DNA of 20,167 nucleotides from a virus, in the IMG/VR virus record IMGVR_UViG_3300032242_001345, positions 1 to 20,167 of that record. One strand, 5' to 3'. The notes under the pieces are model-generated. The model worked only from the letters and a program-made list of their open reading frames with translations. It was not told the DNA's origin and did not search any database. Shown in pieces: positions 9,887 to 18,274 of this stretch. The translations under genes and the position numbers were made by a program. Numbering within the stretch: position 1 is the first letter of the stretch; each line of letters begins with the position of its first letter.

Positions 9887-11323
9887 ATGGCAATCGTAAT
9901 CGACGTTGGGTTCAAAGGGTCACCGGCTCTCACAAAGCTAAACAACACGGTTGACAACCTCAAGAAAGTCAACAAGCAGTTCGACTCTTTGGCCGGGAAA
10001 ATCAACACGGCAAACACGGGTCTCGCTCGCATGAACTTGCTGCTGTTGAACGTGGCGCAAAACGCCAAGTCCGCGGCCAACGCTATTGGAGCCATCGGCG
10101 GGGCGAGGATCAGCACGGGCGGCAGCGGGACTTCTCGCGGCCCACGCGTGACTAAGCCCCCGTTGGCTTACGCGCACGATCCGAAAGCGGGCATGAACTA
10201 CTATGCTCAGGCCGCAGCGGCGGGCGATCCTCGGGCCGGGAAGCTGTTTGCGAAGTACCGCAACATGTACGGCGCAGCTCAGCGCAATCAGGCCAGCGCG
10301 TCGGCATACTCTGCTGTCCAAAACCATCCGCTTGGGGCGCAACTTCTAAACGCGGTTTCTCGAACTCGATTTGGGAAAATGGGCGGGCAGATCCTAGGCG
10401 TTGACATGATGTCCTTGCTTGGCGGCCCAGGTGGTGCGGGAGCTATCTCGGCTATCCAAGGGTTTGGGGCAGCAGGAGCGGCAGGCGAAGCCGGGATGGG
10501 GGCAATGGGCGCGGCTGGACTTGCGGCGTTAGCTAGCCCGATCGGGATTGCAGTTGCGGCGCTCACGGGGCTGGCGGTCGCCACGGCGTTGGCTAAAAAC
10601 GCAATGTCAGCATGGGGCCAATCGTTGGTGTCTGGCGGCGGTTCAGTCGGTCAGGCTCGGGCGGCAAACGCACTCAGCCAATTCACCGGCGTAGACGTTG
10701 CAGGGGTCGGAAAGAACATGGGGCCGGTCGCGGCAGGCATCGCGGGCGTTGGGGCCTTTACTGGGCCATTCGGGGCAAACGACTACAACGCTCGGGGCCT
10801 TGCGATCATTGATAAGATCCGAAACGCAAGCTCGTTTGACCAGGCAAGACGCATTGCGGAACTTGCGGGATCTCCAGACCTCGCTAAGGTGAAGTTCTTA
10901 TCTCAAGGGTCTTACGACGCGCTTCGAGGTCAGCCCAACTCTAGCGGCGGGGCGGCGGGAATTCAATCATCGGCCGAGTTCGACGCGGCGGTCATTAACA
11001 TGAAAACCGCGCTTGAAAGCCTCGCGGTTGGCGCAACCCCGCTTATCCAAGGGTTTGCAGATTTAACCAGCGCGGCGGCCGCAGCGATTAAGGTGTTTAA
11101 GGACATTGACGACGCGGTACATGATTTTGTGGCTCGGCTATTGGGTGGGAAATCCGAGCACTCCAACGCGCTCCGTGATAACACGCGAGCCATTCAAGAA
11201 AACACCAACCAGTATCGGGAAGGTACCTATGGTGGCGGGCCGAGAACTCGCGGCGCGGTTCCTCGAAATCTAAATGGCCTACCGGGTAGTGGGTATTCCA
11301 ACGCGGACTATGGCCTAATCTGA
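9887..11323 (+). CDS. Tape measure protein (short)
   Basis: The 478-aa product begins with a beta-strand (AIVIDVGFKG) and a helical segment with heptad repeats (TKLNNTVDNLKKVNKQFDSL and on to about 75), typical of tape measure N termini. A Gly/Ala-rich hydrophobic stretch lies at about 182-238 (GLAALASPIGIAVAALTGLA), the likely membrane-active segment released at DNA injection. More helix follows (FDAAVINMKTALESLAVGAT, NTRAIQENTNQYREG), then a Gly-rich end. The tape measure sets tail length; 478 residues is short, implying a tail of the order of 70 nm. No peptidase domain (NlpC/P60 or M23) is visible. The ribosome site is weak, and the ATG follows the frameshift product's stop by 3 bases, so coupling is likely. 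Confidence 0.87.
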   Translation: MAIVIDVGFKGSPALTKLNNTVDNLKKVNKQFDSLAGKINTANTGLARMNLLLLNVAQNAKSAANAIGAIGGARISTGGSGTSRGPRVTKPPLAYAHDPKAGMNYYAQAAAAGDPRAGKLFAKYRNMYGAAQRNQASASAYSAVQNHPLGAQLLNAVSRTRFGKMGGQILGVDMMSLLGGPGGAGAISAIQGFGAAGAAGEAGMGAMGAAGLAALASPIGIAVAALTGLAVATALAKNAMSAWGQSLVSGGGSVGQARAANALSQFTGVDVAGVGKNMGPVAAGIAGVGAFTGPFGANDYNARGLAIIDKIRNASSFDQARRIAELAGSPDLAKVKFLSQGSYDALRGQPNSSGGAAGIQSSAEFDAAVINMKTALESLAVGATPLIQGFADLTSAAAAAIKVFKDIDDAVHDFVARLLGGKSEHSNALRDNTRAIQENTNQYREGTYGGGPRTRGAVPRNLNGLPGSGYSNADYGLI

Positions 11324-11338: not shown

Positions 11339-11905
11339 ATGATGCACCCTCCACAACCTCAGAGTAACGGGCTCAAAGTGGCACTGATAGTGCTGGCGGC
11401 CATCGTTGCGATTTTAGTTGTTGATCGAATCAGGTTTCAAATGAGCCTGAACCGGCTATCAAACAGCATTCAAGAAAGTTTTGATAGGATTCACGCGACG
11501 CCGGCCGAGCGAGCGTCAAAACTAGCTATCGGGATGACCAGGGAACAGGTAGTCGCAGCCATCGGTGAACCCGATCACGATTACGGAAAGGTCTTCCACT
11601 ACCGAACGGACGGGACCGATCAGCCGTACATCGTTGGGTTTGATGACAACGGGAAGGTCGAAGGGTTCAACGCGAGGCCACTCACGCAATCCGAAAAAGA
11701 CTACGCGCGAGATCCTCGAACTATGGCTGATTCATTGGCTGTAGGCGATACCGCCGAACAAGTTCTCGCGCAGCTTGGGCAACCAACCTCGCGAACCACA
11801 TCCACAAACGAGCATCCAGCGGTTTGGCGGTACGAGACCCAAAACGGAACCTTGCCAATCGAAATGGCAAACGGGCGAGTATTCAAGATCTACCCTGTCG
11901 AGTAA
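11339..11905 (+). CDS. Membrane-anchored protein with two BamE/SmpA-like repeats, moron candidate
   Basis: The 188-aa product has one transmembrane segment (about 13-31, VALIVLAAIVAILVV) with a short N-terminal cytoplasmic end. A helix follows, then two repeats of the BamE/SmpA/OmlA kind: LAIGMTREQVVAAIGEPD (about 62-79) and LAVGDTAEQVLAQLGQPT (about 132-149), each followed by beta-strands (HYRTDG, VWRYETQNG). There is no lipobox Cys, so it is a membrane-anchored protein and not a lipoprotein. It lies between tape measure and tail tip but looks like no tail protein, and it is closed by its own terminator (11925-11959). A lysogenic-conversion or superinfection-exclusion role is possible. The start is ATGATG at 11339-11344; the AGGGG site (11332-11336) fits the second ATG (11342) better. 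Confidence 0.74.
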   Translation: MMHPPQPQSNGLKVALIVLAAIVAILVVDRIRFQMSLNRLSNSIQESFDRIHATPAERASKLAIGMTREQVVAAIGEPDHDYGKVFHYRTDGTDQPYIVGFDDNGKVEGFNARPLTQSEKDYARDPRTMADSLAVGDTAEQVLAQLGQPTSRTTSTNEHPAVWRYETQNGTLPIEMANGRVFKIYPVE

Positions 11906-11971: not shown

Positions 11972-14902
11972 ATGAGCGGAACCGGCGTTTTTGATAACCG
12001 ATCCACGCGGCTGGTCTTCAATGACTATCTGCCATCGGTCATATCGCCGTGGGTGGCAGTTGAGCGAGACGCGCCGGAGATGGCTCGCTCGTCCGAGTCG
12101 CAAGTCTCCCAGATGATACGCATTCAGGGGATCGGGTGGCAGCTCGAATCCTATCACTCAAAGCCCAGTGATCCGGTTTGGCTGACGGCGGCCGCATCGG
12201 GCAATTTGTCGGTAGCAAACGGGGCGTCCGTGGCTCCGAAAATGGTCGAGGAAGACTCTTTCGTTAAACCGTCACTCTCCGGCGTCAGCTACGATTCGAG
12301 CGTTCAGGCATCCGGCGCGCCAAAGATCCAAGCCAAGTACGCGGCGGTTGACGACCGGTCTACCAACACGCTCTCGACTGACCAGTCCTCGTATCCAGGG
12401 CCAAACACTTCCGAGGACGCGACAAATCTTGACCGGGTTTACAAGTTCACGTCCACCAACCCGGACGACGACCTGCAATTTCGGCTCCATGCGCCCGGAA
12501 GCTCGATTGTGCCGAGCGTTACGCTCGCGACGTTCTACTTTGGCGGCCCTGCGGGGTCCGATAAGGCGGCCTCGAGCGATTCCACGAAGTTTGGCCAGGG
12601 AAAATACGCGCTCAAGGTTCGAGGGGATGGTAAGTGTTGCCTCTACGAAAAGTTAGCCGACAACAGTTGGCTGCTCCGCACGACTTTTCCTTGGTTTGAC
12701 CCCTCGGAGCCTATTCGATCCACCGACGCGGTTTTCAACGTGTACCGGCGAGTTTGGGTGGACACGAACGGAGACTACCAAGGTGACCGGTTGGCGTTTG
12801 GCGTTAAAGCCGTGATCGACGCGGCGACCGGGACAGAAACGGGGTTTGGTGGGGTTGCGGCATCGGCGGCGTTTCTGGCCTCGTACAACGCGCCCGTCAA
12901 GACCTTTGAGTATGTTCCCCCTCGCCTTACCCAGAAGGCCACAACGCTTGAATCCAGCCATTCACCGGTCCGCATAGATCTTGCCCGGGACGTTCGCGCC
13001 AGCTTCTCGGTCGCCAAACACGTTTACAAGGATTCCGGCTACATCCTAGACGACTGGATGGATCTTGGGGTGGCCATCGGCACGTCGGAGAACATCTACG
13101 TTTACATCTACGGGGTGAAGCCTTCGGGTTCGGACTGGAGTCTCGCGGTTTACGACCAAAACGGAACTGCGCTCTCATCGGCCGGCGCGATTGCGACCGC
13201 TACCGTCCCCTACGGCGTGGTTAGCGTTCAGGGGTTCACCCCGACGGCTCGCATGTCGAAAGTGCGAGTAAAAGTTTCCGCGACGGCAAGTTCAGATAAG
13301 TTCAAGACCCCGACCGTCACAAACTACGCGGTTTACAAAGCACCGGTCTACACCACGGACAACCCACTCTCGCTGGCCTATTGCCCTACCTACGGTAGCA
13401 ACCTGCCGCGATCGACGGTTGAAAGCGTGATGATCCACAACCCGGATCAAAACCCGCAGACCGACACGGCTACGATTACGGTTTCGGACCTCTACGGGGA
13501 CCTGTCGTTTTTGGGGAACCGGAACATGGTCCCGATCCTCGTTCAGACGCGGTACGACACGACATCGACCAACTGGGCCAACTTGTTCCGCGGCTACGTG
13601 CTCCAGGCCACGGGCGAAAACATGCGAAATGGCATCGTTCGCTGGACGCTTCAATGTTCCGGCGAATGGGCGCGAATGCAAGAAACGACGCTTCCGATGC
13701 GTAAGTCTTGGGCGGCGCGGACTTCGGGAGGCGCGGTTTACAACGTCACGGACGTCATTCGCTATTACGCGCAGCTCATCTACCCGGCGAGCATGGTGGA
13801 CGTGCCCGATATTTCGGTTCCGCTGCTGGGTGATGACCCGAGCGCACTGACGCCGGAACCGGGCTCAAAGGTCTTCGACAACGCCAAGGGGCTTTGCGAT
13901 GACTACCTTGGGTCTTACCTCGACTTCGACCCATCGGCAGGCTCTAAGGGCATGCTGCGGATGTTCACTCAGAAGAAACCGCCGTACAACAACCTCGCGG
14001 TGTTTGAGATAAAGCACCCGACCACGCTCGCGGGTGACGGCGTTCCCAGGCTTCCCCAGTTTTGCGCGGCTTACGGGACGACGACTTCAAGCGGGCAGAC
14101 AATCCAATACCTTCCGATTATCGCGGGGTCTTACCGGTCTTGGCTTGAGAAAGCCGAGGGAAACCTCGTGCGGGTGGTTGGTGGAGCCCACAACGAAGAC
14201 GCGTCGAAAGCCGGAACCGTCGGGATGGGGATTATCAGCCAGTTCGCCATTAAGACGGATTCGTTTAACTTCCTTGGCTTGGCATCAAGTGCGTCCCACT
14301 ACCCCGACGGCAGTTCACCTGAGTTTTACGGGCGCGTGGTTCCGATTACGGTGGTCGATTTCAAGTGCGGAAGCCAAGACGCGGTCAACTGGAAGTGTCG
14401 CCGGATCTTCGATAAGGCATGCTACACCCAGTTTTATCTGCGGTTTGAGGCTCCGCTTATCCTGGTCACCGACATCAACGATTCGTTGCAGACGAGCCCG
14501 AGGCCGCTGCGGTATTACGACGCCGTCCAGGTGCGACAACCGGACGCGTCGCTCGCTCAATTTCTGGTTGTGAGTTGCACTCCGTCTTACAAGAAGGATC
14601 ACGTACAGATGGCTGAGTACGTTCTCGTGACGCAATCGAACATCAACACAATCGGGATTGTGAACAAGGAATCGCGGGGGTATCGAGCGTTTAAGAAAGC
14701 GCTTTCGAGGGCGAAAGGCAGCCAAGAGGAATTCAACTCCTACAAGTCGTCTCAGCAGGCGTCAGCGGACCATCTGAAGTCTCAGATGATGGGGCTTCCG
14801 ACGTTTACCGCGCTCCCTATCCAGGATTTAGACCCAACAAGTTCGACGTTTGGCCAGTTCATCAACATGAGCTCGTATGACGCGGTCCCGAGTCGGCACT
14901 AG
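11972..14902 (+). CDS. Tail tip / baseplate hub candidate (976 aa)
   Basis: This is the first large protein after the tape measure, the place of the tail tip or hub (Tal-like) protein. Residues about 480-565 resemble the start of hub domains: VESVMIHNPDQNPQ, ATITVSDLYGDLSFL, NMVPILVQTRYDT, LFRGYVLQATGENM and RWTLQCSGEWARMQ, that is, a local-frame description of a disc-shaped beta domain. A helical DVIRYYAQLIYPASM (about 590) follows, and later beta parts contain YYDAVQVRQPDASLAQFLVV (about 848). The N-terminal 450 residues are beta-rich, Ser/Thr-rich and probably separate sandwich domains. The C-terminal end has a charged helix (FKKALSRAKGSQEEFNSYKS). No lysozyme or peptidase motif is seen. 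There is no Shine-Dalgarno site before the ATG, only a pyrimidine-rich leader after the terminator. The end overlaps the minus-strand RHH gene by 4 bases. Confidence 0.68.
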   Translation: MSGTGVFDNRSTRLVFNDYLPSVISPWVAVERDAPEMARSSESQVSQMIRIQGIGWQLESYHSKPSDPVWLTAAASGNLSVANGASVAPKMVEEDSFVKPSLSGVSYDSSVQASGAPKIQAKYAAVDDRSTNTLSTDQSSYPGPNTSEDATNLDRVYKFTSTNPDDDLQFRLHAPGSSIVPSVTLATFYFGGPAGSDKAASSDSTKFGQGKYALKVRGDGKCCLYEKLADNSWLLRTTFPWFDPSEPIRSTDAVFNVYRRVWVDTNGDYQGDRLAFGVKAVIDAATGTETGFGGVAASAAFLASYNAPVKTFEYVPPRLTQKATTLESSHSPVRIDLARDVRASFSVAKHVYKDSGYILDDWMDLGVAIGTSENIYVYIYGVKPSGSDWSLAVYDQNGTALSSAGAIATATVPYGVVSVQGFTPTARMSKVRVKVSATASSDKFKTPTVTNYAVYKAPVYTTDNPLSLAYCPTYGSNLPRSTVESVMIHNPDQNPQTDTATITVSDLYGDLSFLGNRNMVPILVQTRYDTTSTNWANLFRGYVLQATGENMRNGIVRWTLQCSGEWARMQETTLPMRKSWAARTSGGAVYNVTDVIRYYAQLIYPASMVDVPDISVPLLGDDPSALTPEPGSKVFDNAKGLCDDYLGSYLDFDPSAGSKGMLRMFTQKKPPYNNLAVFEIKHPTTLAGDGVPRLPQFCAAYGTTTSSGQTIQYLPIIAGSYRSWLEKAEGNLVRVVGGAHNEDASKAGTVGMGIISQFAIKTDSFNFLGLASSASHYPDGSSPEFYGRVVPITVVDFKCGSQDAVNWKCRRIFDKACYTQFYLRFEAPLILVTDINDSLQTSPRPLRYYDAVQVRQPDASLAQFLVVSCTPSYKKDHVQMAEYVLVTQSNINTIGIVNKESRGYRAFKKALSRAKGSQEEFNSYKSSQQASADHLKSQMMGLPTFTALPIQDLDPTSSTFGQFINMSSYDAVPSRH

Positions 14903-15033
14903 CCTTTGTTTCGATGCTGCCGATGAAGCCAAACAAGGTACGCGGACACGGTCAAGCCCAGTTTAGCGGCCTCGGTTTCGATCTCGGCTTTGATCTCCAC
15001 GGTCACTCTGACGCGAACTGTCTGGTCCTTCAT
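14899..15033 (-). CDS. Small ribbon-helix-helix (CopG/Arc-like) protein
   Basis: The minus strand encodes a 44-aa protein from ATG at 15033-15031 to TAG at 14901-14899. The pattern is that of an RHH DNA-binding domain: an N-terminal beta-strand with alternating residues (KDQTVRVRVTVEI), helix A (KAEIETEAAKLG), the turn LTVS, and helix B (AYLVWLHRQHR). RHH proteins dimerise, pair the strands into a ribbon that enters the major groove, and often bind tandem direct repeats as repressors. It is the only minus-strand gene I can support here. It faces away from the promoter at 15056-15084, making a divergent arrangement, and its 3' end overlaps the tail gene stop. The ribosome site is weak (TAGG just upstream). 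Confidence 0.76.
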   Translation of the reverse strand: MKDQTVRVRVTVEIKAEIETEAAKLGLTVSAYLVWLHRQHRNKG

Positions 15034-15034
15034 G

Positions 15035-15044
15035 CCTAGTTAGG
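15035..15044. repeat. Short inverted repeat CCTA-GT-TAGG
   Basis: CCTAGTTAGG lies directly upstream of the RHH start codon. The arms are 4 bp with a 2-base centre. It might be an operator for the RHH protein itself, but it is short enough to be chance. Confidence 0.25.
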
Positions 15045-15055
15045 TTGTCGGAAGG

Positions 15056-15084
15056 TTGACGCGTGGGCCTTTTGTGGCTACAAT
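15056..15084 (+). promoter_or_regulatory. Sigma70-type promoter before the small membrane protein
   Basis: TTGACG (15056-15061), a 17-base spacer and TACAAT (15079-15084) match the housekeeping consensus in 5 of 6 positions at each box. The expected start is near 15091, only about 3 bases before the ATG at 15094, so the mRNA would be leaderless or nearly so. It is the best promoter seen in the window and probably works from the prophage, independently of late transcription. Confidence 0.7.
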
Positions 15085-15096
15085 GGGCCTACAATG
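15064..15096. repeat. Two sets of direct repeats over the promoter
   Basis: TGGGCCT occurs at 15064-15070 and 15084-15090 (20 bases apart), and TACAATG at 15079-15085 and 15090-15096 (11 bases apart, one helical turn). They cover the spacer, -10 box and start site. Such repeats are what an RHH repressor would bind; the neighbouring RHH gene makes this a reasonable inference, not a demonstrated operator. Confidence 0.42.
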
Positions 15097-15354
15097 CTCA
15101 AAACGCTTATTCCTGACCCTGCCGGATTTCGAGAAGACCTTATCAAGCTCGCCGTTCTTGGCGTGATGCTGTTCTTCGTTTACCAAATCGCGCACACAAG
15201 CTTCGTGAAATCGAGCGAGATCTACTCGCACGAAGACGCTTACGTTTCTCCTCATGGCTTATCGAACAGGCAGGTCCCGGCGGCTCTACTTCCGGGGGAG
15301 CATGGCGGTGCCGGTTCACTTCCACGCGGAAGCGGATCCCATCAAGTCGGGTGA
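15094..15354 (+). CDS. Small single-pass membrane protein, moron candidate
   Basis: The 86-aa product has a polar N terminus of about 16 residues (LKTLIPDPAGFREDL), one transmembrane helix (about 17-35, LIKLAVLGVMLFFVYQIAH) and a hydrophilic C-terminal part. From about residue 54 the sequence is Pro/Gly/Ser-rich and overlaps the start of the next gene by 101 bases in another frame, so its end may be less constrained. It has its own consensus promoter (15056-15084) and no Shine-Dalgarno site, in line with near-leaderless expression. Lying between two tail genes, it has the hallmarks of a moron expressed in the lysogen. It could be a superinfection-exclusion protein; a holin is less likely because there is one helix and no lysis neighbours. 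Confidence 0.62.
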   Translation: MLKTLIPDPAGFREDLIKLAVLGVMLFFVYQIAHTSFVKSSEIYSHEDAYVSPHGLSNRQVPAALLPGEHGGAGSLPRGSGSHQVG

Positions 15355-18274
15355 CACCTGGCAAAGCCAACTGGGGTTTGGTTACTGCGTCACCGAAGCT
15401 CTCGGGTGCGTCTTTAATGTTCAGTCGTCCTCGGTCTATTCGGACGACGTCGCATCGAACCAGATCACGCTCTATTACGACACGGCGATCACTTGTACGG
15501 CTCTCGGAATCAGTAGCGTTGATAATGCCGCAGTCGTCAACGACTACTTCGATCCTCGCTCGAGGCCGCTTGATTACACTCACGCGGGTTCCTTTTCGTG
15601 GAAGGTCTATCTAGACGTTGAGGAGTGGTTCGACCCTTCTGCGCCACCGACCGACGTAACGACGATTGACGGGACCGATTTCCCTTCGTTTGGCGGGGCG
15701 GCCCAGGTTGACGGGGTTTCGGCGCGAGGCGGCGCATTTTACGAGCTACCGAAGGTTGGCGGGGCGTTCTACGCGGAACTCTCGGGAGAAGGGCGGTTCT
15801 GCTCGATCTCGCGGACTATCGGGAGCACGTTCCCGAACCTGGTCAGTTACGAAAACTATCGCGAAGTTTTTAGCGAGCTTTATCGCTGCTCGGCTACGTT
15901 TTCGGTCTACGGCGAATTCTGGGACGGAACCACGGCCACGGGCATCGGCTCAGTCATCTACTCACAATCGGCCACGAACGGATCCACAACCGCGACGTGC
16001 AATTTCGGGCCGACGACGTCCATTGTCGCATCGGACAGCGCGACTTACGCGCTCGATGGCCATCAATACAGCATTGCCAAGCAGTACTGCTCGATGGATT
16101 ACAACTGGACGTTTAAGGGCAACCTGCGAACGTTCACGCAGGCTTACCCTGGCAGTCTGACGGCTCACGTGTCTTCGGCGGGTCTTTCGACCGATGTAAC
16201 GTGCGCACCAACGGGCTCGGCGAGTATCACGCAACGGTACGCGGTCTATCAGCCGACGCCAGCCGCGACACCAAAAACGAACTACTCACTCGACGAGCGC
16301 GGTTCAATGCGGGTTTGGGTCACGGGGCTCAGCGCGGCGGGCGAAGACTCCCGCGACTGGCGCATGATGATCCTCGGTTTTCGCCGGGACGCGGTTCAGC
16401 TCACGCACAATAACCCGGAGACGCTTGACGACGGGACGAGCCTGACCGGTTGGACGGCAGGATCGAACACCACGCAATCCATCGTGAGCGGCGCGGTTCG
16501 GTTGACAGTGTCGGGGGGCACGGGCTCGGCTTCGCGGGCGTTTACGCTCTTCAGCTCCGAAGCCTACCGGTACCTGCGAATCAGAGCCAAAGCGGACACG
16601 GCGCGGACGGTTCAGGTCACGATAGCCGGGAAGACTTACACGCTCTCGCTGACGTCGTCCTACGCTGACTACGACCTCGACTTGGCAATGTGGCCGGGTG
16701 AGACTTCGACGGTTTTCACGAAAGACACCCGCAACCCGATTCGCGGTCCGGCCGATACGCCGGCCGATGGGTTTCCGCAGCTCGAAAGTGAGTTCGGATG
16801 GGGTATCAACCGGATCGCGTCTATCGGGTTCGGAGCCATCAACTCGGGCGCGGTCATCGACATCGACGCCATCACATTGGTTCGAAAGCGCAACGCGTAC
16901 TTGACCAACTTGGCGGGGTTCAAGTATTGGCCGCTGATGTGGTCATCGCCGACAGACAACACGCTTGGGCAGCCGTTCTTTTCGCTCGCGACCGACGAAC
17001 GCGGGCCGCTGGATCTTTGGCATTGCGCGTGGGTTCAGCCGCTTTCAGGCAGCGGGAACTACCTCAGCTACGTATCGCAATCGGCGATGGTGTCGCGGCT
17101 CAACACGATTCGCGGGCTATCGGCTACGATGCTTTCCGACCACGCGGATGGCTACCACACGTCGGGCCTAGAGTCATACCTACTGGGTGGCGGGGGCGCA
17201 ACGTTCGACTACACTAGCGGGGCGGCCTCGCCTTGGGCGTTCTACGTTGACAAGGCCATCACGACTTCGACCGTGATCCAGTCCCAGGATCTTTGGGATC
17301 AAGTCAGTATTTACCCGGGTGCCGGCGAAGTTTGGACGAGCGGAGCGTACAACGTGGCGACCGTCTTGGCTTCGTGCAAGTTCTTGCGGGGTGATGCGGT
17401 TGGGATGGCTGGCGACAGCACTGGCTCGGCGATGTCTGGCCAGACCGTAGCGACCTACAAGACGGCTTCGACCTCTACCAGTGGTGGTTCGGCAACAACC
17501 GGCACCTATGGGCAGTATGAGACCGGCACACCTTGGGGCTTTGGGAACATCCGGTACACGACCGAGTTTCGTGGCACCACGCCCTATCTGACGGCAAACG
17601 AAATTTGGGATAACCGGCGGCGGGCCCGGACTTCGTTCTGCAAAGTTATCATCGTTCCCGGTCAGCCGGTTTGGCATCTTCAGGACCAAAACGGACGCAT
17701 CCACATCGCCACGGTTCACAACGGAGACGTTGTTTACTATCGCGGGAAGTACGTCACCCCCGAGGCCGGGTGGTTCAGCACCAACACGGTCACAGCGTTT
17801 GGCGACGTGACCGGGGCGCGGATGGCTATCAACCCGCGTGACCGCTCGATTGTGATGATCGTGGCGCGAACGGCGGCGGGTACTACCAACCTTTGGAAGC
17901 TGACTTCGCACTCGGACGGTACCGATTTTGACGGAGGAGCACTCTTTATGAGCAACGCAATCGCCGGGACGCCTTGGGCCGAAAGGTCGGGCGCGATGGG
18001 CATTTCTTGGTTCCAGTACGACTCTGGCACGTCTGGGCAGGGCAAGCAAAAAGCCCAGTACAAGCGGATGGGATCCAACTCATTCGGAACAACATTCACG
18101 TTCAAGGATTCGACCTCGACCGACATTGCCGTTGCGGACGGTGGCTGGTCGGTGGTTGTGCCTGCCCACGATAGCCAGCAGCGGCTGACCTGGACGCCGG
18201 TTATCCAGGGCGAGACTTCGCCTTCGGTTTGGTACTCCACCGACGACGGCAAAACCTGGCTCCGCAGCTCCTAA
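15254..18274 (+). CDS. Large tail protein, receptor-binding candidate with carbohydrate-binding-like domain and Asp box
   Basis: The 1006-aa product is almost wholly beta-strand and rich in Ser, Thr, Gly and aromatic residues. Residues about 389-490 (SLTGWTAGSNTTQSIVSG, then GSASRAFTLFSSEAYRYLRI and VQVTIAGKTYTLSL) resemble a galactose-binding/CBM-like jelly roll. Residues about 790-1006 look like blades of a beta-propeller (WHLQDQNGRIHIATVHNGDV, ARMAINPRDRSIVMIVAR), and the end carries one clear Asp box, STDDGKTW (995-1002), as in sialidase-like proteins. This suits a tail fibre or tip adhesin that binds host glycans; catalysis is not shown. The start may be ATG 15254, or ATG 15302 sixteen codons later; neither has a properly spaced ribosome site. 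It overlaps the small membrane protein gene. Confidence 0.66.
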   Translation: MAYRTGRSRRLYFRGSMAVPVHFHAEADPIKSGDTWQSQLGFGYCVTEALGCVFNVQSSSVYSDDVASNQITLYYDTAITCTALGISSVDNAAVVNDYFDPRSRPLDYTHAGSFSWKVYLDVEEWFDPSAPPTDVTTIDGTDFPSFGGAAQVDGVSARGGAFYELPKVGGAFYAELSGEGRFCSISRTIGSTFPNLVSYENYREVFSELYRCSATFSVYGEFWDGTTATGIGSVIYSQSATNGSTTATCNFGPTTSIVASDSATYALDGHQYSIAKQYCSMDYNWTFKGNLRTFTQAYPGSLTAHVSSAGLSTDVTCAPTGSASITQRYAVYQPTPAATPKTNYSLDERGSMRVWVTGLSAAGEDSRDWRMMILGFRRDAVQLTHNNPETLDDGTSLTGWTAGSNTTQSIVSGAVRLTVSGGTGSASRAFTLFSSEAYRYLRIRAKADTARTVQVTIAGKTYTLSLTSSYADYDLDLAMWPGETSTVFTKDTRNPIRGPADTPADGFPQLESEFGWGINRIASIGFGAINSGAVIDIDAITLVRKRNAYLTNLAGFKYWPLMWSSPTDNTLGQPFFSLATDERGPLDLWHCAWVQPLSGSGNYLSYVSQSAMVSRLNTIRGLSATMLSDHADGYHTSGLESYLLGGGGATFDYTSGAASPWAFYVDKAITTSTVIQSQDLWDQVSIYPGAGEVWTSGAYNVATVLASCKFLRGDAVGMAGDSTGSAMSGQTVATYKTASTSTSGGSATTGTYGQYETGTPWGFGNIRYTTEFRGTTPYLTANEIWDNRRRARTSFCKVIIVPGQPVWHLQDQNGRIHIATVHNGDVVYYRGKYVTPEAGWFSTNTVTAFGDVTGARMAINPRDRSIVMIVARTAAGTTNLWKLTSHSDGTDFDGGALFMSNAIAGTPWAERSGAMGISWFQYDSGTSGQGKQKAQYKRMGSNSFGTTFTFKDSTSTDIAVADGGWSVVVPAHDSQQRLTWTPVIQGETSPSVWYSTDDGKTWLRSS

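Follow-up and report, generated by a model that had tools for sequence, protein, structure and literature searches.

A candidate ribbon-helix-helix-controlled membrane-protein cassette between two tail genes of an environmental phage

The virus record IMGVR_UViG_3300032242_001345 was analysed at its full length of 20,167 bases, here called the window, and carries a run of phage structural genes. Within this run an island of 351 bases separates two large genes, tailA and tailB. The island holds a minus-strand open reading frame (ORF) for a 44-residue ribbon-helix-helix (RHH) protein, a divergent plus-strand ORF for a protein with one predicted membrane helix, and, between the two start codons, a promoter overlain by tandem repeats. 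We propose that the island works as a self-contained cassette: the RHH protein would repress both its own gene and that of the membrane protein, for which superinfection exclusion is the leading candidate role. We give the cassette reading a probability of about one half. An original prediction, made from the sequence alone, had called the island a self-contained regulatory module. The features on which the argument turns are the following.

11972..14902, plus strand: tailA, the upstream tail gene, 976 residues, with homologs in phage Mae-JY24 and four IMG/VR contigs
14899..15033, minus strand: RHH ORF, 44 residues, NikA-like, a probable (auto)repressor by Pfam PF21983, AlphaFold, Foldseek and codon log-odds
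15042..15062, no strand assigned: first tandem pair with an 11-base step, AGGTTGTCGGA / AGGTTGACGCG, a candidate operator from lag analysis
15056..15084, plus strand: sigma70-type promoter, TTGACG-17-TACAAT, 10/12 by consensus scan
15073..15096, no strand assigned: second tandem pair with an 11-base step, TGTGGCTACAATG / TGGGCCTACAATG, 11/13 identical, a candidate operator from lag analysis
15094..15354, plus strand: membrane-protein ORF, 86 residues, one predicted membrane helix, by codon log-odds, hydropathy and AlphaFold
15254..18274, plus strand: tailB, the downstream tail gene, 1006 residues, by two-block similarity to Mae-JY24 and a shared N-terminus

The minus-strand ORF encodes a ribbon-helix-helix protein. 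It matches the NikA-like Pfam family PF21983 with an E-value of 2.2e-07 and 31.4 bits, above the curated cut-off of 27, over model positions 3-34 of 72 only, and its weaker NCBIfam matches (MobA at 4e-05, TraJ and RelB/DinJ) are all to RHH families. The AlphaFold2 model of the monomer, built from the single sequence, has an extended N-terminus followed by helices at residues 12-25 and 29-42, with a predicted local distance difference test score (pLDDT) of about 92 at residues 21-30. The residues that precede the first helix read T-V-R-V-R-V-T, which we take to be the alternating pattern of the RHH DNA-contacting strand. The best Foldseek matches of the model are CopG, Arc, AtaR and KacA, and Rv0298 is also among the structural matches; the E-values of these best matches, about 0.15, are weak because the chain is only 44 residues long. 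At 0.150 bits per codon, the codon log-odds of the ORF fall among those of real genes but also close to the highest values that antisense frames give, so that the family match carries the case for a gene. No match to the protein was found in phage and plasmid collections or among PDB sequences, and none to PF03869 (Arc/Mnt) up to an E-value of 10; against the PHROG of Mnt it reaches 0.064 only.

The start codons of the RHH and membrane-protein genes lie 60 bases apart. TTGACG-17-TACAAT is the sole plus-strand site in the 20 kb that matches the promoter consensus at 10/12 or better; at the looser threshold of at least 9/12, a 4-kb scan found 1 site where chance predicts 1.3. Its -10 element ends 10 bases ahead of the membrane-gene ATG, with the transcript start predicted at about 15091, and at so short a distance the message is predicted to be leaderless or nearly so. 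The sequence TACAATG, at 15079 and 15090, forms the core of a tandem repeat identical at 11 of 13 positions (15073-15085 and 15084-15096). An additional tandem pair of equal 11-base step, AGGTTG[T/A]CG at 15042 and 15053, had not been noted in the original prediction. Over the 63-base spacer the identity at lag 11 is 27/52; in 5000 dinucleotide shuffles, no lag between 6 and 24 gave so high a value. Elsewhere in the 20 kb, the high-scoring segments show lags divisible by three, as is typical of coding DNA. A step of eleven bases approximates one turn of the helix, as would be expected if RHH dimers bind next to each other on one face of the DNA, and the half-sites of Arc are likewise spaced about 11 bases apart. 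The first tandem pair lies over the -35 element and abuts the start of the RHH gene, and the second covers the -10 element, the predicted transcript start and the membrane-gene ATG. Given these positions, binding would hold down expression of the membrane gene and probably that of the RHH gene too.

The evidence supports the plus-strand ORF as a coding sequence with one predicted membrane helix. Its codon log-odds over the unique part (15094-15253, 160 bases) are 0.395 bits per codon, against a mean of 0.31 for the phage's real genes and of -0.24 (standard deviation about 0.15) for wrong frames on the plus strand. Its last 101 bases lie within tailB, and there the log-odds of the membrane-protein frame are -0.17 and the tailB coding signal emerges. 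AlphaFold predicts a single confident helix at residues 9-43 (pLDDT 96 at residues 21-30), which includes the hydrophobic run LIKLAVLGVMLFFVYQIAH; the predicted membrane helix spans about residues 16-34. The hydropathy of 1.87 is not convincing on its own as evidence for a membrane protein, since about 5% of spurious ORFs reach the same hydrophobicity. No Shine-Dalgarno site is recognisable before the ATG, and such sites are present before several other genes of the phage. We found no homolog of the protein, no match in Pfam, NCBIfam or PHROG, and no defence-family match with PADLOC.

What is the history of the island? Whole tail-protein scans of viral contigs and genome contigs returned no close relatives. 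Distant relatives were obtained by tblastn of phage genomes, which gave the Microcystis phages Mae-JY24 and Mwe-Yong1318-1, and with two hand-made motif patterns, which gave the four IMG/VR contigs G033 (L086), G034 (L089/L097), G035 (L091) and G036 (L092); other pattern matches (L083, L084 and L090) encode no tail-protein relative. Mae-JY24 and the four contigs, the five relatives compared here, all have tailA at about 25-30% identity (27%, E 7e-62, for Mae-JY24), and most have a recognisable tailB; G033 also shares 49% identity with the window in the capsid protein and 34% in the portal. At the tailA-tailB junction, the two genes overlap by 4 bases in Mae-JY24, tailB begins 3 bases past a small tailA C-terminal piece in G034 and 9 bases past a tailA C-terminal piece in G036, a 293-residue plus-strand gene begins 6 bases past such a piece in G033, and a single unrelated 66-residue plus-strand gene occupies the junction in G035. 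An RHH gene or a membrane protein of the window's kind is absent from this junction in all five relatives, each of them distant, which argues that the island is an accessory insertion, or moron. Its low content of guanine plus cytosine (52.7% against 57.7% overall, among the lowest 3.6% of segments), taken together with this absence, likewise fits a moron. The simplest history would be a gain of the island in the lineage of the window.

The start of tailB at 15254 is supported by an N-terminus of the form M..TGRSR...F.G that is common to the window (MAYRTGRSRRLYFRG), Mae-JY24 (MSFSNGRTRNVTFSG) and G034 (MANPFKTGRSRTIVFDG), with a looser version in G036 (MSYHHRTQAYDFTG, L092). A side observation concerns the other gene. 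The tailA C-terminal segment, recognised by the motif DLDPxSxTFG, lies within one ORF in the window, in Mae-JY24 and in G035; in G033, G036 and probably G034 it forms a separate short ORF that overlaps tailA or comes just after it (L086 4105-4389, L092 9404-9670 and, as the reverse complement, L097 3548-3757), an arrangement that would reflect either splitting of the gene or expression by frameshifting.

These results bear out most of the parts named in the original prediction: the 44-residue minus-strand RHH gene, whose fold appears in structure prediction, the near-consensus promoter ahead of a small single-pass membrane protein, and the TACAATG repeat over the promoter, now one element of a wider 11-base pattern. 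A second repeat that it had drawn attention to, TGGGCCT, is indeed present in copies 20 bases apart, and we rejected it as an operator candidate, its best identity at lag 20 being 7/11, a chance-level value. The parts of the proposed module are in place, with an RHH fold, a promoter, repeats, a coding ORF and absence from the five relatives, and control of the membrane gene by the RHH protein is what we infer from them. The original prediction had counted absence of the RHH frame and promoter from close relatives with the tail genes retained as evidence against the module. Such absence is seen, in distant relatives only; it fits recent gain of a moron and leaves the proposed function standing.

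The original prediction could also name no known counterpart of the pair, and here the comparison with P22 and HK97 overturns it. The immI region of P22 (sieA - orf59a - mnt / arc - ant, between gene 16 and the tailspike gene 9) has the same anatomy (PMC8022706). Like the island, it lies inside the late operon, with virion genes on both sides and a gene of the spike or fibre type following it. Its RHH repressor gene, mnt, is on the minus strand and points away from a promoter on the plus strand, a likeness to the island in arrangement only. Operators occupy the spacer (candidates in the island), the membrane exclusion protein SieA is encoded nearby, and the region is variable among relatives (PMC8022706). 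The components differ. As controls, Mnt and Arc score 4e-30 and 5e-31 against PF03869, whereas the RHH protein of the window falls outside the Arc family. While immI encodes two regulators and an antirepressor, the island encodes one 44-residue regulator and no ant; no such ORF exists between tailA and tailB, nor is there room for one. Similarly, SieA has three membrane helices and, as a control, matches phrog_7745 at 9e-109, whereas the membrane protein of the window has one helix, no SieA similarity and no PHROG match, and its gene is located opposite the repressor.

HK97 gp15 and P22 SieA are membrane exclusion proteins that block DNA injection by related phages (PMC10883804). The exclusion moron gp15 specifies a small predicted inner-membrane protein among the tail genes, next to the tape-measure gene, and HK97 has in addition a forward/reverse moron pair, gp22/gp23, between tail genes I and J (PMC10883804). 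However, gp15 is YebO-like (Pfam 1.2e-08, as a control) whereas the membrane protein of the window has no Pfam match, profile searches do not identify gp23 as an RHH protein, and the HK97 morons have annotated terminators, of which none was found in the island. By sequence family the regulator belongs with the NikA/MobC-type proteins (PF21983), and plasmid members of this type can autoregulate, as is reported for MobC of RA3 (PMC4175270). The RHH protein of the window differs in being half their length, in lying in a tail operon and in having no relaxase family match in the window. The best structural resemblance, at a TM-score of about 0.75, is to CopG, the plasmid repressor of pMV158/pLS1, which has about 44 residues and an RHH core. 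CopG acts by binding its own promoter; by Pfam it belongs to another sequence family, and it serves plasmid copy control as opposed to a phage cassette. The island may thus work like an immI or moron island with proteins that fall outside either protein family.

Alternative explanations have to be set against a repressor-controlled cassette. The RHH and membrane proteins might be independent morons that share one junction, the former having its targets elsewhere, such as other promoters of the phage or promoters of the host, and the latter being expressed late for lysis or virion release. The membrane gene runs in the direction of the operon and could be read by late transcripts, the operator is only a candidate, and relatives carry other membrane-protein genes beside tailA on either strand. 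We nevertheless find independence rather unlikely, because exactly between the divergent starts lie a promoter and an array of repeats that is statistically strong, neither of which a late-operon gene would need. That the two genes form a toxin-antitoxin-like pair, with a toxic membrane protein silenced by the RHH protein, seems very improbable. RHH antitoxins are common, AtaR, KacA and Rv0298 appear among the structural matches, and small single-helix proteins can be membrane-toxic. But type II modules are co-transcribed and their antitoxin binds the toxin through a tail, whereas the genes of the island are divergent, the 44-residue protein ends with its second helix and lacks a toxin-binding tail, and PADLOC reports no match.

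Other alternatives recast one gene of the island. The partial match to the NikA-like model as best family, with the NCBIfam MobA and TraJ models next best, could mean that the RHH gene is a shortened, nonfunctional remnant of a NikA/MobC-type mobilisation or relaxosome accessory gene. Against such decay, 44 residues make up a full RHH core (the CopG chains matched are 41-45 residues long), the codon usage is normal, no relaxase family matches any of the window proteins scanned, and the repeat array would be left unexplained; we judge a remnant distinctly unlikely. The plus-strand ORF, in turn, might be a leader that sets tailB expression through the 101-base overlap, or might supply a membrane-anchored alternative N-terminus of tailB by frameshifting. 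The length of the overlap, the lack of a Shine-Dalgarno site before tailB at 15254 and the fall of the membrane-frame coding signal in the overlap would suit such a role. It is rendered improbable by the tailB genes of relatives, which do without such a leader, by the frame change required, which is +1 and uncommon in phages, and by the coding signal of the unique part, which matches that of real genes in strength.

We therefore favour a cassette under the control of its RHH protein, which would repress the membrane gene as well as its own. The island would be a moron that carries its own switch. From an RHH gene transcribed against the late operon, RHH dimers would be made that bind the 11-base-step tandem repeats in the spacer, one turn apart and on the same face; this binding would block the membrane-gene promoter and limit expression of the RHH protein itself. 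The membrane protein would be produced from its leaderless message independently of the late operon, at times when that operon is off. Anchored by its one helix, it might act in the inner membrane against the DNA entry of related phages, that is, in superinfection exclusion. Binding, repression and independent expression are inferred from the sequence. Exclusion is the leading role for the membrane protein because HK97 gp15 and P22 SieA, small membrane proteins encoded beside tail genes, block DNA injection, and by this analogy we advance it tentatively, at less than an even chance.

Several observations weigh against this proposal. The two tandem pairs differ in sequence, and RTTGWMGS, a motif common to the four repeat units that we considered and discarded, is at chance level given the tandem repeats (P ~0.38). 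No consensus-type minus-strand promoter was found for the RHH gene and no terminator-like site for either gene in the island, and neither an integrase nor a lysogeny repressor was recognised in the 20-kb record. The lack of homologs leaves the membrane protein with no tie to exclusion. Owing to the overlap with tailB, the last part of the membrane protein is either restricted by the tailB frame or taken over from it.

The structural genes identified in the window include a terminase, an SPP1-type portal and a GP7-like major capsid protein, and two further genes precede tailA.

9887-11323: tape-measure-like gene, a weak PHROG match
11339-11905: gene for a membrane anchor and a BamE-like domain, a Pfam domain match

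Neither tailA nor tailB matches any Pfam or PHROG model. Its position after the tape-measure-like gene suggests a tail role for tailA, and position likewise points to a virion role for both proteins. The similarity of tailB to Mae-JY24 falls in two blocks, and its C-terminal half has a homolog in Mwe-Yong1318-1 annotated 'sialidase 2'. The stop codon of tailA overlaps the final bases of the divergent RHH ORF. Searches for RNA elements and tRNAs found none. Relatives of the terminase (1445-2908) in IMG/VR (L002-L010) reach 73% identity, yet these contigs show no detectable counterpart of the window's portal, capsid or tail genes; none of the 32 terminase-relative records checked gave a tail-gene match, and none of them has a NikA-like RHH protein above the cut-off. 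The one sub-threshold NikA-like case, in L093, adjoins an integrase-like ORF (judged by eye) and does not lie in a tail operon. These comparisons indicate a phage that is strongly mosaic right after the terminase.

Finally, we note that of the six phages compared, five have a membrane-protein gene just upstream of tailA, on one strand or the other. In the window this is the gene at 11339-11905, which encodes a helix and the BamE-like domain. On the strand opposite to tailA, Mae-JY24 (L082 11276-11920, minus strand) and G036 (L092 6150-6794, minus strand) encode a zinc ribbon, a helix and a weakly similar C-terminal domain, and G034 (L099 105-722, also opposite to tailA) encodes, by eye, a zinc ribbon and helices. 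G035 has a DUF2335 gene (L091 1095-1553) and G033 has nothing. The junction upstream of tailA resembles a hotspot for cargo, from which exclusion candidates might be drawn. In G036, two more minus-strand genes lie between the tape-measure and tailA genes (L092 4401-5803), and we judged by eye that they resemble an HNH-type endonuclease and an ImmA-type zinc peptidase. A promoter-like site that scores 10/12 occurs at just one further place in the window, TTGAAA-18-TAAAAT at 11440 on the minus strand, inside the BamE-like gene.

In its most specific form, our proposal is a minimal immI-like cassette of about 350 bases, with no sequence relationship to that of P22, in which a NikA-type RHH autorepressor with an 11-base-step tandem operator would control a leaderless single-helix membrane exclusion protein, in phages with interchangeable membrane cargo flanking tailA. 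We offer this combination as a possibility, well short of an even chance. If it is true, the solution found by P22, an independently switched RHH island beside a tail or spike gene, would have re-arisen from other parts in unrelated environmental phages, which would suggest that tail-operon junctions generally accommodate membrane cargo under repressor control. The island would then provide a candidate for a very small superinfection-exclusion protein together with a compact RHH-operator system.

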